Part shown: positions 43,819 through 48,126 of the stretch, one piece after another | How positions within the stretch are numbered: position 1 is the first letter of the stretch | Layout: each line of letters opens with the position of its first letter | Source of the DNA: Pseudorhodobacter antarcticus | GTDB lineage: Bacteria; Pseudomonadota; Alphaproteobacteria; Rhodobacterales; Rhodobacteraceae | DNA length: 64,000 nucleotides | Direction: 5' to 3' | Assembly (NCBI RefSeq): GCF_900110135.1 | Contig: NZ_FOCO01000004.1 | Location: 1 to 64,000 of the forward strand | The notes under the pieces: model-generated | The model's input: only the letters and a program-made list of their open reading frames with translations | Databases searched by the model: none | Told to the model about the DNA's origin: nothing | Position numbers and translations under genes: made by a program

Positions 43819-44331
43819 ATGGGGCGAATGATGCGGGTTCTAAAACTGGTTGCAGCACTTTTTGTGGTTTTGGGGCTTGCTGCCTGCGGGGGAGATTCCA
43901 AATTTCGCACCTATAATGGCCCAGCTGTGACCAAGGTCGTGGTGCATAAAGCAGACCGCGAAATGCAGCTGTTTCACAACGAAAAAGTGTTGAAAACCTA
44001 TAAAATATCGCTTGGGTTTGCACCTGTGGGCCACAAGCAGATTGAAGGCGACGGCAAAACGCCCGAGGGGTTGTATTACATCGACCGTCGCAATCCGCGC
44101 AGCCGGTTCCACCTGTCGATTGGCATCAGCTATCCCAACAAGGCTGATATCGCCTATGCCAAATCCATCGGCAAACAGCCGGGCGGTGAAATTTTTATCC
44201 ACGGTAAAACGGGGTACAAAGGCGATAACAAAGGCGATTGGACTTGGGGCTGCATCGCCGTGCCGGATCGCCAGATGGAAGATATTTATGCGATGGTGCG
44301 CGATGGCACCCCGATTTATATCAATCCGTAA
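43819..44331 (+). CDS. L,D-transpeptidase (YkuD domain) lipoprotein
   Basis: 170 residues with a lipoprotein signal (VLGLAAC, lipid-bearing C23) and a YkuD catalytic domain: the histidine of FIHGKTG (H128) and the catalytic cysteine of DWTWGCIAVPD (C145). It forms 3-3 cross-links in peptidoglycan or attaches proteins to it. ATGs at 43828 and 43831 are also possible starts. Its end is followed by a terminator shared with the convergent CAP-domain gene. Confidence 0.9.
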   Translation: MGRMMRVLKLVAALFVVLGLAACGGDSKFRTYNGPAVTKVVVHKADREMQLFHNEKVLKTYKISLGFAPVGHKQIEGDGKTPEGLYYIDRRNPRSRFHLSIGISYPNKADIAYAKSIGKQPGGEIFIHGKTGYKGDNKGDWTWGCIAVPDRQMEDIYAMVRDGTPIYINP

Positions 44332-44361: not shown

Positions 44362-44874
44362 TCACGCACCCGTCACCATCGTCCACCAAATCTTGCCATT
44401 CGGCTCTTGGAACCAGGAAAAGCCCAATTCGCGAGCCGCTGGGTCCATGATGATTTCGCGTGTATCAGGCTTGATCATCCACGCTGACAGGGTTTCAAGC
44501 TCTGTTTCAAATGTTTCAGAGATATTCTCACCCACCAAGCGCCCGGCATAGCCAACACGGTTCACACGGTCCAAAGGCGACGATCCATCAGACCCGAAAT
44601 GCCACGGACGGTTTTGCACCGACATGTCGCGCGAATGGGTGGCCGCAGCCGCGTTCAGCTGCGCATTGTATTGCAAGGGTTGGGCCCCTTTGGCCGCGCG
44701 CAACGCATTCACAGAATCCAGCAAACGAAAGGGGATTTTATTCTCTTGCGAGCCCGAAATGGTGTAAACCTGCGGCAGGGGGCGGCCATCGCTGCCCACC
44801 CTGATTTGGTTTCCGGTCCCACATGCGGCAAGCGCAAATGCAGTACAGATTGCGACAACTGATAAAGCTTTCAT
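44362..44874 (-). CDS. CAP/SCP-domain lipoprotein
   Basis: 170 residues: lipoprotein signal with lipobox LAAC (C18), then a CAP (cysteine-rich secretory protein/PR-1) domain with the SVNALRAAKGAQPLQYNAQLNAAAATHSRDM helix, the HFGSDGSSPLDRVNRVGYAG segment and the GENI motif. The histidines of ATHS and WHFG are those that line the CAP cavity in relatives. CAP proteins in bacteria are extracellular and their role is largely unknown. ATG 44874 is chosen since longer starts would precede the signal peptide. Confidence 0.85.
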   Translation of the reverse strand: MKALSVVAICTAFALAACGTGNQIRVGSDGRPLPQVYTISGSQENKIPFRLLDSVNALRAAKGAQPLQYNAQLNAAAATHSRDMSVQNRPWHFGSDGSSPLDRVNRVGYAGRLVGENISETFETELETLSAWMIKPDTREIIMDPAARELGFSWFQEPNGKIWWTMVTGA

Positions 44875-45032
44875 TTCATTCCCATCCGGAGCAAGCCCTA
44901 TGTCTTTAGCGCTTTGCGCCGATATGAGCAAACGCAACTCTGCGTTACTCCGCCGATCCACGTCACTGTGATTTGAAATGCGGTCAAAAAAGAGTTATTT
45001 TTCGACCAGAGCTGTAATAAGGAGTCGTTCGG

Positions 45033-45626
45033 ATGAAAACCGGCCGCGCAATGAATATGAATCGCCGTGTGTTGATGGGTGCCGCCGCTGCCAGTCTTGG
45101 CCTTTCGGGCGTCCCGGGCTTTGCACAAACCGGCAGCACCGAATTTGAAACAAACGATTCCGTCCGCAACAACACGTCCAGCTTTCGGATGCTGGATTGG
45201 CGCCCATATTTCACAGATACGAAAAATGGCGCGATTCTGGTGGATACCACATCGCGGGCTTTGCATTTCTGGTCCGAAGATCAGACCACTTACAAACTGT
45301 ACCCCACATCTGTGCCCCTGACTGAGGATTTGACCCGTCGTGGCCGCACCGAGATTGTGCAAAAAGTTGTCGGCCCAACGTGGCGACCCACCCCGTCGAT
45401 GAAGGAACGCAACCCGGAATGGCCGGATGTTGTGGGGCCGGGGCCAGAAAACCCGCTGGGCACCCATGCGCTGTATCTGTCGTGGACCTATTACCGCATC
45501 CACGGCACCCATGACACGCGCAAGATTGGTCGTCGGTCGTCCAACGGCTGTGTCGGGCTTTACAACGAACACATCTTGGTTCTGTTTGGTTTGACCAAGG
45601 TTGGCACGCAGGTGTTGTTGATTTAA
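45033..45626 (+). CDS. L,D-transpeptidase (YkuD domain), exported
   Basis: 197 residues. An N-terminal twin-arginine-like stretch (MNRRVLMGAAAASLGLSG) suggests export. The YkuD domain shows the histidine of YRIHGTHD (H157) and the catalytic cysteine of RRSSNGCVGL (C173); the arginine that usually follows the cysteine by two positions is replaced by glycine (GCVGL), with the arginine pair coming before it. ATG 45033 follows AAGGAGTC by nine bases. It lies near the first L,D-transpeptidase (43819), which is not its close copy. Confidence 0.9.
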   Translation: MKTGRAMNMNRRVLMGAAAASLGLSGVPGFAQTGSTEFETNDSVRNNTSSFRMLDWRPYFTDTKNGAILVDTTSRALHFWSEDQTTYKLYPTSVPLTEDLTRRGRTEIVQKVVGPTWRPTPSMKERNPEWPDVVGPGPENPLGTHALYLSWTYYRIHGTHDTRKIGRRSSNGCVGLYNEHILVLFGLTKVGTQVLLI

Positions 45627-45647
45627 GGCCGCGTTAGAGCATGATGG

Positions 45648-45676
45648 GAAAGGGGGGGCTTTGGCCCCCTTTTTTC
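45648..45676 (+). terminator. Rho-independent terminator after the second L,D-transpeptidase
   Basis: Stem AAGGGGG / CCCCCTT with loop GGCTTTGG and a T-run (TTTTTT) after it, 22 bases past the stop codon. Confidence 0.85.
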
Positions 45677-45898
45677 TTGCCCAAAAGCATCGTCGCCCCA
45701 TCTTTGATCCATGGCGCGCGAAATGTGGCACAAGAGTGTTGCTAAATTGACGAAACCGGCGGTAAGCGCATTAGTTTTTCACAACCCAGATTGCAATCCG
45801 CACCCCAAGCTGATTAGAAACCGCTCACGAGGTATAGTCTTGGGTGCGCGTTATCGTCCTCTGAAAAATTCGGTGGCGCGCGAAAACTGGAGGTTACT

Positions 45899-46078
45899 AT
45901 GAAGAAACTTGCACTCGCCGCGGCTCTGTCCGTAGCAGCATCGACAGCATTTGCTGGTGGCATGGCTGAGCCAATGATGGAACCAACAATCGTTGAAGCA
46001 CAGACATCTTCGTCTGCTGGCGGTATCGTTGTTCCTTTGTTGCTTCTGCTTGTTATCGCAGCTGCTGCATCGAAGTAA
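45899..46078 (+). CDS. Small exported protein of 59 residues (unknown family)
   Basis: ATG 45899 is preceded by a near-perfect ribosome site (GGAGG, five bases before the start), and the gene is followed by its own terminator, so it is a real, free-standing, probably well expressed gene. The product has a signal peptide (MKKLALAAALSVAASTAFA, cleavage after about residue 19), a mature N-terminus GGMAEPMMEPTIVEAQ with a flexible Ser-rich link, and a C-terminal hydrophobic helix GGIVVPLLLLLVIAAAASK. It would be a periplasmic peptide anchored in the inner membrane by its C-terminus. I recall closely similar short proteins in other Rhodobacterales, sometimes mislabelled from the neighbouring ferrochelatase. 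Function unknown. Confidence 0.85.
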   Translation: MKKLALAAALSVAASTAFAGGMAEPMMEPTIVEAQTSSSAGGIVVPLLLLLVIAAAASK

Positions 46079-46104
46079 TCCTTAGGGATTGCAACGAAAT
46101 AAAG

Positions 46105-46133
46105 GACGGTAGGTTTATTCCTGCCGTCTTTTT
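46105..46133 (+). terminator. Rho-independent terminator of the 59-residue gene
   Basis: Stem GACGGTAGG / CCTGCCGTC (one T-G pair) with loop TTTATT and TTTTT after it, 26 bases past the stop codon. Facing the hemH 3' end, which lies 36 bases beyond. Confidence 0.88.
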
Positions 46134-46168: not shown

Positions 46169-47251
46169 TTATTTCACCCAGCCCGCAAGGTTTTCTTGAA
46201 TGATCGTGACCAGTGCCGCGACATGCGCATCGTCATCGTTCAAGCATGGGATATAGGTGAATCGTTCGCCGCCCGCGTGTTCAAACGCTTCGCGAATCTC
46301 ACCGTTAATCTCCTCCAGCGTTTCAATGCAATCGGATGAAAACGCAGGGGCGATCACCGCGATGTTTTTCTTGCCCTGCTTGGCCAGCTCCGCCACATGT
46401 TCGACCGTGTAGGGTTTCAACCACTCCTCGCGGCCAAACACGGATTGAAAGCTGGTATCAATCGCGGATTTGTCCCAGCCCAGCTTTTCGCGCAGCAGGC
46501 GCGTGGTTTTGGCGCAATGGCAATGGTAGGGGTCGCCTTCCATCAAATAGCGAATCGGCATGCCGTGATAGCTTGTAACCAACACATCCGGCGTGTGATC
46601 CAATTCCGCATAGGCGCGGGTGACCGATGCCGCCAGCGCGTCGATATACTGGGGGTGTTCAAAATATTCCGGCACAATGCGCGCGGTGGGTTGGCGTTTT
46701 TCCTTCATCAGCGCGGCAAAGAACGCATCATTGGCCGTGGCCGATGTGGCCCCTGCGTAATGGGGGTAAAGCGGGAAAAATAGGATCTTTTCACAACCCG
46801 CCGCTACCATCGCCTTTACCTTTGATTCGGTGGACGGGTTGCCATAGCGCATGCTGAAATCAACGATCACCTCGCCGCCGTAAGCCGCCGACAGGGCTGC
46901 GCTGATTTTGGTGGTTTGATCGCGCGTGGTCGTCAAAAGCGGGCTTTCGTTTTTCTCGGTGTTCCAGATCAGTTTGTAATTGGCACCCGATGCAAAGGGC
47001 CTGCGCGTCAGGATGACCAGCTGCAACAACGGCTGCCAAATCCAATCCGAGATGTCGACGACCCGTTTGTCGGACAAAAATTGGTTTAGGTAGCGGCGCA
47101 TCGACCAATAATCATAGCCGTCCGGCGTGCCAAGGTTGGCCACCAGCACCCCGATTTTGGGCGCTTTGACCACGGGGTGATCTGCGGGGGCATGAGCCAG
47201 CCGCCCGTGCCCGGGGGTAATATCGGGTTGGCTGTATTTTGCGTCCAGCAT
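46169..47251 (-). CDS. hemH: Ferrochelatase
   Basis: Inserts ferrous iron into protoporphyrin IX, the last step of heme synthesis, following HemJ. The 360-residue protein has the catalytic histidine in SYHGMPIRYL and the LFFPLYPHYA and APAFSSDCIETLEEI segments. The start at ATG 47251 follows AAAGGAG by six bases; ATG 47254 and an upstream in-frame start are alternatives. It follows the methyltransferase gene by 50 bases on the same strand. Confidence 0.94.
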   Translation of the reverse strand: MLDAKYSQPDITPGHGRLAHAPADHPVVKAPKIGVLVANLGTPDGYDYWSMRRYLNQFLSDKRVVDISDWIWQPLLQLVILTRRPFASGANYKLIWNTEKNESPLLTTTRDQTTKISAALSAAYGGEVIVDFSMRYGNPSTESKVKAMVAAGCEKILFFPLYPHYAGATSATANDAFFAALMKEKRQPTARIVPEYFEHPQYIDALAASVTRAYAELDHTPDVLVTSYHGMPIRYLMEGDPYHCHCAKTTRLLREKLGWDKSAIDTSFQSVFGREEWLKPYTVEHVAELAKQGKKNIAVIAPAFSSDCIETLEEINGEIREAFEHAGGERFTYIPCLNDDDAHVAALVTIIQENLAGWVK

Positions 47252-47301
47252 CATTCGCTCCTTTAGCATCGTATTGGCACATAACGCCTTACAGCGCAGG
47301 G

Positions 47302-48126
47302 TCAAGCATCGCCCTTGGTTTGCGGCAGCACAATCTCGGGCGCGTTCAAGGCATCGGCAAGGCGTTGCACCGCCGATCCGGGGCGCAGTGGCTTTTGCTG
47401 GCTGTCATGCGGGGCCCATCCGGTAAGAAAGACCATCTCAAAACTTGCTTTGATTTTGTCGTCCACGCCGTAAGCATGGGTATAGCGTTGCGCGGCATCG
47501 GTGAACACGGCGCGCGGTGTCGCAGTCCGCAGGCGGGCGTCCAGCGCGTTGCCTTCGCCCATGGCGCGCAGGTCGTGCATCAAGTGCCAAAGGTCGCGGT
47601 ACAAAACGGTGCGGGTGAAACTGTCGGCCACGGGCAGCGCAAACCCCGCGCGCTGCAGCAAACCGCCAAGGTCGCGAATTTCACCCATTGGCAGCACGCG
47701 GGGCGACAGGCCGCCAGTAACCGCCGCTTCCGCCTCGGCCAAACAGGCGCGAAGTTCGTGCAGGGTTTGGCCGCCAAACAGCGCGCCCAGAAACAAGCCA
47801 TCCGGCCGCAAGGCACGTTTACACTGAATAATCTGGCCAACCGGGTCATTGGCCCAATGCAGCGCCAATGCGTGGATCACCAGATCATGCGCGCCAGGTT
47901 GCAGGTTCAGCACCTCCTCATCCGGCACAATTGTCGCTGCGGGAAAGGTTTTGCGCCAAAAATCGGGAAACCCGGTCACAATCGCGATGTTTGTAAACGA
48001 CCTGTTAACCTCTGTCAGTCTTTCATTAACCTCGTCACGGACGTCCTCATGCAAGAACGTCGCGCCTTTTGCACGGGCGCGGTTGCGGGCAAGGGTGGTT
48101 GTGTCGGTCAATCGGGGCATTTTCAT
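47302..48126 (-). CDS. SAM-dependent methyltransferase-fold protein, NDUFAF5-like
   Basis: 274 residues of the class-I methyltransferase fold; the N-terminal LARNRARA and the HWANDPVGQIIQCKRALRPDGLFLGALFGGQTLHELRACL block (with the LAEAEAAVTGG segment) are typical of the alphaproteobacterial relatives of the human complex-I assembly factor NDUFAF5 and of BioC. The SAM-binding glycine motif is weak. NDUFAF5 itself hydroxylates an arginine of a complex-I subunit; I infer a respiratory-assembly link but the activity is unproven. The start ATG 48126 is 23 bases from the divergent comF start. Confidence 0.7.
   Translation of the reverse strand: MKMPRLTDTTTLARNRARAKGATFLHEDVRDEVNERLTEVNRSFTNIAIVTGFPDFWRKTFPAATIVPDEEVLNLQPGAHDLVIHALALHWANDPVGQIIQCKRALRPDGLFLGALFGGQTLHELRACLAEAEAAVTGGLSPRVLPMGEIRDLGGLLQRAGFALPVADSFTRTVLYRDLWHLMHDLRAMGEGNALDARLRTATPRAVFTDAAQRYTHAYGVDDKIKASFEMVFLTGWAPHDSQQKPLRPGSAVQRLADALNAPEIVLPQTKGDA

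Follow-up and report, generated by a model that had tools for sequence, protein, structure and literature searches.

The micro-gene and its surroundings

The window, that is, the whole 64,000-nucleotide stretch of Pseudorhodobacter antarcticus DNA analyzed here, contains a gene for a 59-residue micro-protein. The gene lies downstream of two genes for YkuD L,D-transpeptidases (LDT1 and LDT2) and one for a CAP-domain lipoprotein, and it converges with hemH (Table 1). In agreement with a preliminary description of this DNA, the open reading frame is as written, it is preceded by a Shine-Dalgarno sequence and followed by a strong stem, hemH is next door and cell-wall genes are nearby. Because the terminator scan as a whole shows no excess (5 found versus 5.0 expected), the assignment of a terminator is based on the single strong stem at 46101–46132. 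LDT2 is followed by a terminator-like hairpin of its own, so the description of the micro-gene as free-standing is plausible.

Table 1. Features of the micro-gene locus, with positions in the window.
Feature	Position	Strand	Basis
LDT1, YkuD L,D-transpeptidase; RSP_1201 counterpart by order	43819–44331	+	PF03734, E 8e-21
CAP-domain lipoprotein; dalA (RSP_1200) counterpart by domain and order	44362–44961	-	PF00188, E 2e-19
LDT2, YkuD L,D-transpeptidase, proposed enzyme partner	45033–45626	+	PF03734, E 1.6e-20; RSP_1199 counterpart by domain and order
Terminator-like hairpin of LDT2, between LDT2 and micro-gene	45646–45677	+	-21.9 kcal/mol; not listed by terminator scan
Proposed promoter: TTGCAA (45791–45796), 17-nt spacer, TTAGAA (45814–45819)	45791–45819	+	Conserved spacing
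Conserved block ACGAGGTATAGTCTTGGGTG, read as mRNA 5' end	45827–45846	+	Positional conservation
Leader hairpin, 11 pairs (45846–45856/45871–45881)	45846–45881	+	Covariation; loop CCTC at 45858–45861
Shine-Dalgarno CTGGAGG	45887–45893	+	Read from sequence
Micro-protein gene, 59 aa	45899–46078	+	ORF, profile, dN/dS, hydropathy, structure model
Terminator-like hairpin and T run	46101–46132	+	13-pair stem; stretch folds at -25.4 kcal/mol
hemH, convergent, judged incidental	46169–47305	-	PF00762, E 9.7e-106

The 59-codon frame is a real, selected gene. Its dN/dS over eight close relatives is 0.135, the mark of purifying selection, with values of 0.10 for the signal peptide, 0.10 for the linker and 0.21 for the helix. 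The preliminary description had named loss of the frame in related genomes as grounds for discarding the gene; the frame is in fact conserved. Together, this conservation and the dN/dS value exclude a chance open reading frame.

A scan of one genome per species, covering 84,980 species, returned at least 47 loci with relatives of the micro-gene. Among the matches listed, 46 of the 47 loci belong, by the genus in their titles, to Rhodobacterales and one to an unclassified proteobacterial bin. The homologues at these 47 listed loci are 58–63 residues long, with one of 73, and nearly all have a GGAG-type ribosome site. A micro-protein profile built from 34 rows matches 211 of 246 sampled Rhodobacteraceae genomes. 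In a class-wide sample it matches 8 of 289 genomes, five of which are family members; the three weak matches outside the family span profile positions 1–23 (two) or 1–40 (one). No Pfam or NCBIfam family matches the micro-protein at E ≤ 1, and the passages covered of the open-licence literature name neither the micro-protein nor its leader. An origin in a mobile element or phage was considered and rejected, since neither plasmids (E ≤ 0.01) nor viral contigs gave a micro-protein match.

The micro-gene is repeated in tandem in some genomes, with two copies in G018, three in G011 and five between LDT2 and hemH in G135; profile matches number 7 in G020 and 12 in G204. This amplification had gone unremarked in the preliminary description, as had the structured leader, the Gly-Gly start common to Omp25-like barrels and the match to the dalA locus, all described below. 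The tandem paralogues of G020 contig 63 (L065, L070, L078) and of G011 (L062, L069, L077) have polar tails after the membrane helix, partly His- or Pro-rich (for example, SHHGHDDEPLQTGP), and no LDT2 match within 1.5 kb. Scattered paralogues, namely L067, L075 (G009) and L048, end in acidic or Pro-rich tails (DDDDAPASPAAPA) and point to a wider family of proteins composed of a signal peptide, an acidic linker and a helix.

The codon adaptation index of the micro-gene, computed against a reference of only four ribosomal genes that include rplK, is 0.747, near that of rplK itself (0.753) and above those of all 11 neighbors tested. The excess is modest, as 169 of 5000 null back-translations reach the micro-gene value. 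This result suggests high expression.

LDT2 is the usual upstream neighbor

Neighbors were counted within 3 kb to either side of the 47 loci. Among the matches listed, LDT2 precedes the micro-gene on the same strand in 41 of 47, the CAP lipoprotein gene is nearby in 44 of 47, and hemH lies downstream in 37 of 47, whereas no hemH turned up within that range in the other 10. Most loci have ~150 nt between LDT2 and the micro-gene; this gap is ~270–300 nt in relatives of the window and, in L013, ~720 nt. For 20 genomes that carry the gene, chosen among the strong profile matches, the best LDT2 match (E < 1e-80) is in every case the neighbor of the micro-gene, at a distance of 141–154 nt in 19 and of 270 nt in G048. 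Among 20 genomes without a profile match, LDT2 is matched at E ≤ 1e-10 in 14 and below 1e-80 in 8. The difference in close LDT2 matches, 20/20 versus 8/20, has a Fisher value of 4.5e-5 with phylogeny ignored.

Downstream of LDT2 in 13 of the 14 profile-negative genomes, a divergent open reading frame of the same layout is found in three; no such frame passed the filter in the other 10 of the 13 loci. Two of the stretches reach a contig end. The three divergent frames, read on the reverse strand of their stretches, have predicted mature starts of E (L249), Q (L256) and GG (L257). The paralogues L062 and L067 and the G020 array have no LDT2 match within 1.5 kb.

The domains and gene order upstream of the micro-gene are those of the dalA/RSP_1199/RSP_1201 locus of R. 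sphaeroides, with the genes of the window paired by domain and order rather than by sequence comparison. In the available passages, dalA (RSP_1200) is described as having 'SCP/PR1 domains', and the locus order with RSP_1199 and RSP_1201 is given (PMC9275681, PMC10470522). The same excerpts report that RSP_1199 and dalA have a CenR peak in common (PMC10470522, PMC9275681), that RSP_1199 co-precipitates with DalA (PMC10470522), and that its loss leads to greater sensitivity to aztreonam and lysozyme (PMC10470522, PMC9275681). The micro-gene is unnamed in the sections and passages of these papers that were covered.

A conserved putative promoter pattern and a structured 5' leader

The transcription start is predicted to lie near 45826–45827, downstream of a proposed promoter whose spacing is conserved. 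The pattern TTGC[AG]N, exactly 17 nt, TTA is present in 95 of 144 distinct upstream regions and in 0 of 144 after one mononucleotide shuffle; other spacings tried gave 0 to 6 regions of 144. The proposed promoter is absent from the sigma-70 matches of the promoter scan. The sequence TATAGT/TACAGT in the conserved block was considered as a -10 box and judged the less likely choice: a large clade has a block shortened by one base (TAAGT), and the upstream pattern fits better.

The block at the putative mRNA 5' end contains ACGAGG in 117 and CTTGG in 99 of the 144 upstream regions. Its positional conservation was assessed with 38 of 46 upstream regions anchored, 8 dropped for want of an anchor and L021 misplaced. 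Conservation of the block, ACGAGG...CTTGGGTG, extends to a clade that has no CCUC in its hairpin loop. The block may act as RNA or as a DNA operator.

The hairpin that follows is, by its covariation, a well-supported candidate for a cis-acting RNA. In alignment A2, built with MAFFT from 44 of 48 leaders (L011, a near-duplicate; L039, with a misplaced start; L048, divergent; and L049, cut, were left out), RNAalifold gave only 5 pairs, and the 11-pair helix was extended by eye and then tested. This helix has 103 double-change cells in A2 versus 40.9 ± 7.1 in shuffles (0/500), and 30–55 in slid controls. In alignment A3, with 98 leaders of which two (L149 and L168) repeat A2 members, there are 314 double-change cells versus 105.1 ± 10.7 in shuffles (0/500) and 79–103 in slid controls; these counts lean towards the hairpin because A3, unlike A2, was fitted to the model. 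The shuffles ignore relatedness, whereas the slid controls keep it.

A leader model, R1, matches the window locus with an E value of 3.2e-18, and its next best match in the genome has an E value of 1.9. Under strict filters, R1 matches 117 of 199 family genomes. Of 100 homologues sampled from the best listed profile matches, 98 have an R1 match upstream. Among the best R1 matches, a micro-ORF adjoins the match in all 29 other loci returned; R1 is tied to the micro-gene because the model includes the start-codon region. In the five-copy array of G135, the sole leader match under strict filters is at the first copy. Rfam 15 has no match to the leader, the best scores of 21.6, 19.1 and 13.1 bits comparing with gathering scores of 45, 45 and 81. 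The apparent single target gene makes the function of this candidate easy to test.

Two further pairings were evaluated. For a putative weak hairpin at the Shine-Dalgarno sequence, mean flank pairing is above that of all 1000 permutations; the stem threshold is reached by 49% of 142 sequences versus 31% when permuted, so this hairpin is not general. Pairing of the 5' GAGG with the loop CCUC, which would place the leader among H-type pseudoknots or riboswitches, was assessed by co-occurrence only. The counts of leaders with both, GAGG only, CCUC only and neither are 31/7/0/6 in A2 and 62/58/1/23 in the 144 regions, or 59/63/4/18 under another parsing rule, with phylogeny ignored. The p value for co-occurrence shifts with the parsing rule, from 7e-6 to 0.0098 (the 59/63/4/18 rule), and is 6e-5 after L024, L045 and L151 were judged by eye to be miscalled for GAGG. 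The GAGG persists in the clade without the loop CCUC.

A predicted N-terminal glycine on an acidic linker and helix

The 59-residue product is predicted to consist of a signal peptide (~1–19), a linker (~20–41) and a membrane helix (~42–58). As read from the sequence, its N-terminus resembles a signal peptide with cleavage at AFA↓GG, there is a Ser-rich link, and the C-terminal GGIVVPLLLLLVIAAAASK is hydrophobic. In the homologues, the best 17-residue window has a mean hydropathy of 2.73. A single-sequence structure model, computed with no alignment and of low confidence (mean pLDDT of 69.4), places helices at residues 3–21 and 40–57. The signal peptide, Ser-rich link and C-terminal helix of the preliminary description are therefore borne out as predictions, and its estimate of about 20 residues outside the membrane agrees with a linker of 21.5 ± 1.5 residues before the most hydrophobic 17. 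An export signal and a membrane anchor, as in tethers anchored by L,D-transpeptidases, are thus present by pattern and hydropathy only.

At +1 of the predicted mature chain, every homologue has Gly (56 of 56 distinct sequences, 59 of 59 rows), with an AxA-type site before it in each of the 56. The script sought Ala-Gly, which it found exactly once per sequence at positions 18–23, so that the 59 of 59 is partly built in. Under a looser cleavage rule, Gly is at +1 in 51 of 59 rows, and the remaining rows pick an earlier Ala. Independently of the Ala-Gly script, A19 and G20 are invariant in 34/34 rows of the alignment. The predicted mature start is Gly-Gly in 41, Gly-Asn in 7 and another Gly-X in 8 of the 56. 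With respect to the acceptor amine of known tethers (N-terminal Gly-Gly, Ala-Asp or a Lys box), Gly-Gly is thus found in 41/56 and other Gly-X in 15/56.

The linker varies widely in sequence. It has on average 3.7 acidic and 0.25 basic residues, with any basic residue in 7 of 59 homologues, and P46 at the helix start is present in at least 90% of alignment A1. The last residue is K or R in only 13 of 59 homologues (K in 9), so charge gives no help to an inner-membrane topology with the N-terminus out and the C-terminus in. CTERM sorting domains (GlyGly-, PEP- and VPLPA-CTERM) have a basic tail after the helix. A reading of the micro-protein as one of these was rejected, as no NCBIfam match was obtained at E ≤ 1 and no basic tail is conserved (K/R last in 13/59).

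Omp25-like barrels share the N-terminal start

In its own genome, the micro-protein has a single other match at E ≤ 1, to the start of an Omp25-like barrel (E 0.03, residues 4–39, a span that includes the signal peptides, which add to the score). The predicted mature start of this barrel is GGMNTPTPEPMITPV. The corresponding starts in the relative L074 are GGMAEPMAEPMI for the barrel and GGMAEPMMEPTI for the micro-protein. A barrel search of 61 genomes matched 33 and returned 30 loci, in which cleavage sites were read by eye. Gly is at +1 in 22 of the 24 barrels with a Pro-rich linker (the exceptions being L267 and L280) and in 1 of the 6 without one (L285; Fisher, 8e-4, for linker versus no linker). 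The Omp25-like barrel G000:C42:11045-11641 (L002, L240) has the mature start GGMNTPTPEP. Judged from this start, the linker-bearing barrels that begin with Gly may be wall-linked too.

A proposed membrane-to-wall tether

Tentatively, and with confidence a little short of even, we propose that the micro-protein is a minimal membrane-to-peptidoglycan tether that is wall-linked by an L,D-transpeptidase. Signal peptidase cleavage would leave a mature chain of ~40 residues that starts with Gly-Gly and has a short linker, acidic and containing Pro and Ser, and a membrane helix at its C-terminus. The N-terminal glycine would then receive meso-diaminopimelate from a peptidoglycan stem, transferred by an L,D-transpeptidase that is most likely the upstream YkuD enzyme LDT2. 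With the helix remaining in a membrane, by default the inner one, the result would be a minimal link from membrane to wall. The conserved structured leader at the start of the message probably sets message stability or translation. The preliminary description had given a conserved role as unknown to its author; the conservation holds, and the role is replaced by this testable proposal.

The tether is proposed because an acceptor motif, a membrane anchor, an adjoining enzyme and signs of high expression coincide in a clade that is said, in the available part of one report, to lack Lpp (PMC10470522). In the passages covered of a review and a second paper, L,D-transpeptidases join the N-termini of outer-membrane proteins to mDAP (PMC12729407, PMC11527210), and the acceptor motif is N-terminal Gly-Gly in Coxiella barrels and Ala-Asp in Hyphomicrobiales barrels (PMC12729407). 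An inner-membrane protein can likewise be wall-linked, according to excerpts of a third (PMC12274547), and outer-membrane proteins covalently bound to R. sphaeroides peptidoglycan are stated to be unknown in the sections available (PMC10470522).

Several points argue against the tether. The same sections report R. sphaeroides peptidoglycan with a Tri-Lys-Arg fragment, and their table of DalA co-precipitation does not name the micro-protein, a 4-kDa peptide that would be easily missed (PMC10470522). The Gly-Gly precedent is gammaproteobacterial, and Hyphomicrobiales use Ala-Asp. A close LDT2 persists in 8 of the 20 genomes without a profile match, and some paralogues have no LDT2 within 1.5 kb. 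Finally, look-alikes past LDT2 have predicted mature starts of E (L249) and Q (L256).

Many known small membrane proteins act as regulators or scaffolds. The main rival to the tether is a small regulatory or scaffold membrane protein that would bind the LDT2/DalA complex with no covalent link to the wall, a reading that we consider rather doubtful. It is consistent with LDT2 upstream in 41 of the 47 listed loci and with the co-precipitation of RSP_1199 and DalA in the available passages (PMC10470522), but it leaves unexplained both the constant Gly at +1 (56/56 distinct) and the sharing of this Gly with the linker-bearing barrels. An outer-membrane position of the helix, proteolipid-like and with or without a wall link, is improbable: the N-terminal module is common to outer-membrane barrels and the C-termini are mostly acidic or neutral, but hydrophobic anchors of the alpha-helical type are normally retained in the inner membrane. 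Somewhat less probable still is that an intramembrane protease cuts the helix and frees an acidic ~22-residue peptide as a signal. Small residues and the conserved Pro (P46, at least 90% of A1) at the helix start would suit such a cut, but the linker sequence varies widely, no NCBIfam sorting domain is matched, and none of the 7 neighbors checked is a protease.

A heme-related role tied to hemH is very unlikely. Although hemH is the convergent neighbor in 37 of the 47 listed loci, the other 10 keep the micro-gene with hemH not found within 3 kb, the genes are convergent and the micro-gene has its own terminator. The special link to heme raised in the preliminary description was dropped as the main idea because of these 10 loci, LDT2 being upstream in 41 of 47; the link to hemH looks incidental. 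Equally hard to sustain is a membrane toxin of a type I toxin-antitoxin pair. The small size and hydrophobicity of the product, its structured leader and the copies in tandem would suit a toxin; against this stand the signal peptide, whose cleavage site is conserved, the presence of the gene throughout the family at a single place on the chromosome, and searches of plasmids (E ≤ 0.01) and viral contigs that gave no match. That the RNA is the main product, as a 5'-derived small RNA with a secondary ORF, would account for the strong leader covariation but scarcely deserves credence given a dN/dS of 0.135 and protein conservation across the family.

The tether proposal can be extended to the family. 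In this fuller form, Rhodobacteraceae would staple the inner membrane to peptidoglycan through a 40-residue peptide, its N-terminal Gly joined by the adjoining L,D-transpeptidase, with an acceptor module common to outer-membrane barrels and a dose set by a new class of structured leader; taken as a whole, this is unlikely, if not strongly so. Were it true, one motif would tether both membranes, and the micro-protein would be, to our knowledge, the smallest covalent envelope tether. The micro-gene is a concrete single-gene candidate for a wall-bound protein and the linker-bearing barrels are further candidates, for all of which predicted muropeptide adducts are directly searchable.

Comparison with known tethers

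One of the closest parallels is with the Omp25, Omp2b and AopA/AopB barrels of Brucella and Agrobacterium, which, like the micro-protein, are secreted and alphaproteobacterial. In the available passages, their mature N-terminus is the acceptor that L,D-transpeptidases link to peptidoglycan (PMC11527210, PMC12729407), as is proposed here for the micro-protein. The micro-protein differs in having a single helix instead of a barrel and Gly-Gly instead of Ala-Asp, and its attachment is only proposed. Coxiella BbpA and BbpB have an N-terminal Gly-Gly acceptor motif in the excerpts covered (PMC12729407), the motif also seen at the predicted mature start of the micro-protein. These are barrels of a gammaproteobacterium, and the likeness is one of motif, with no homology claimed.

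Braun's lipoprotein, Lpp, is a tiny tether made by L,D-transpeptidases, a function that is only proposed for the micro-protein. In contrast to Lpp, the micro-protein has Gly rather than a lipobox Cys at +1 and no conserved C-terminal Lys (K in 9/59), and its proposed polarity is opposite, with the N-terminus to the wall and the C-terminus to the membrane. An inner-membrane precedent is OutB of Dickeya dadantii, described in the available part of its report as a membrane protein that L,D-transpeptidases attach to peptidoglycan (PMC12274547). OutB differs in that it is linked by a C-terminal Lys box and is the scaffold of a secretion system. If the helix of the micro-protein sits in the inner membrane, the tether would be a second kind of covalent link between inner membrane and wall after OutB.
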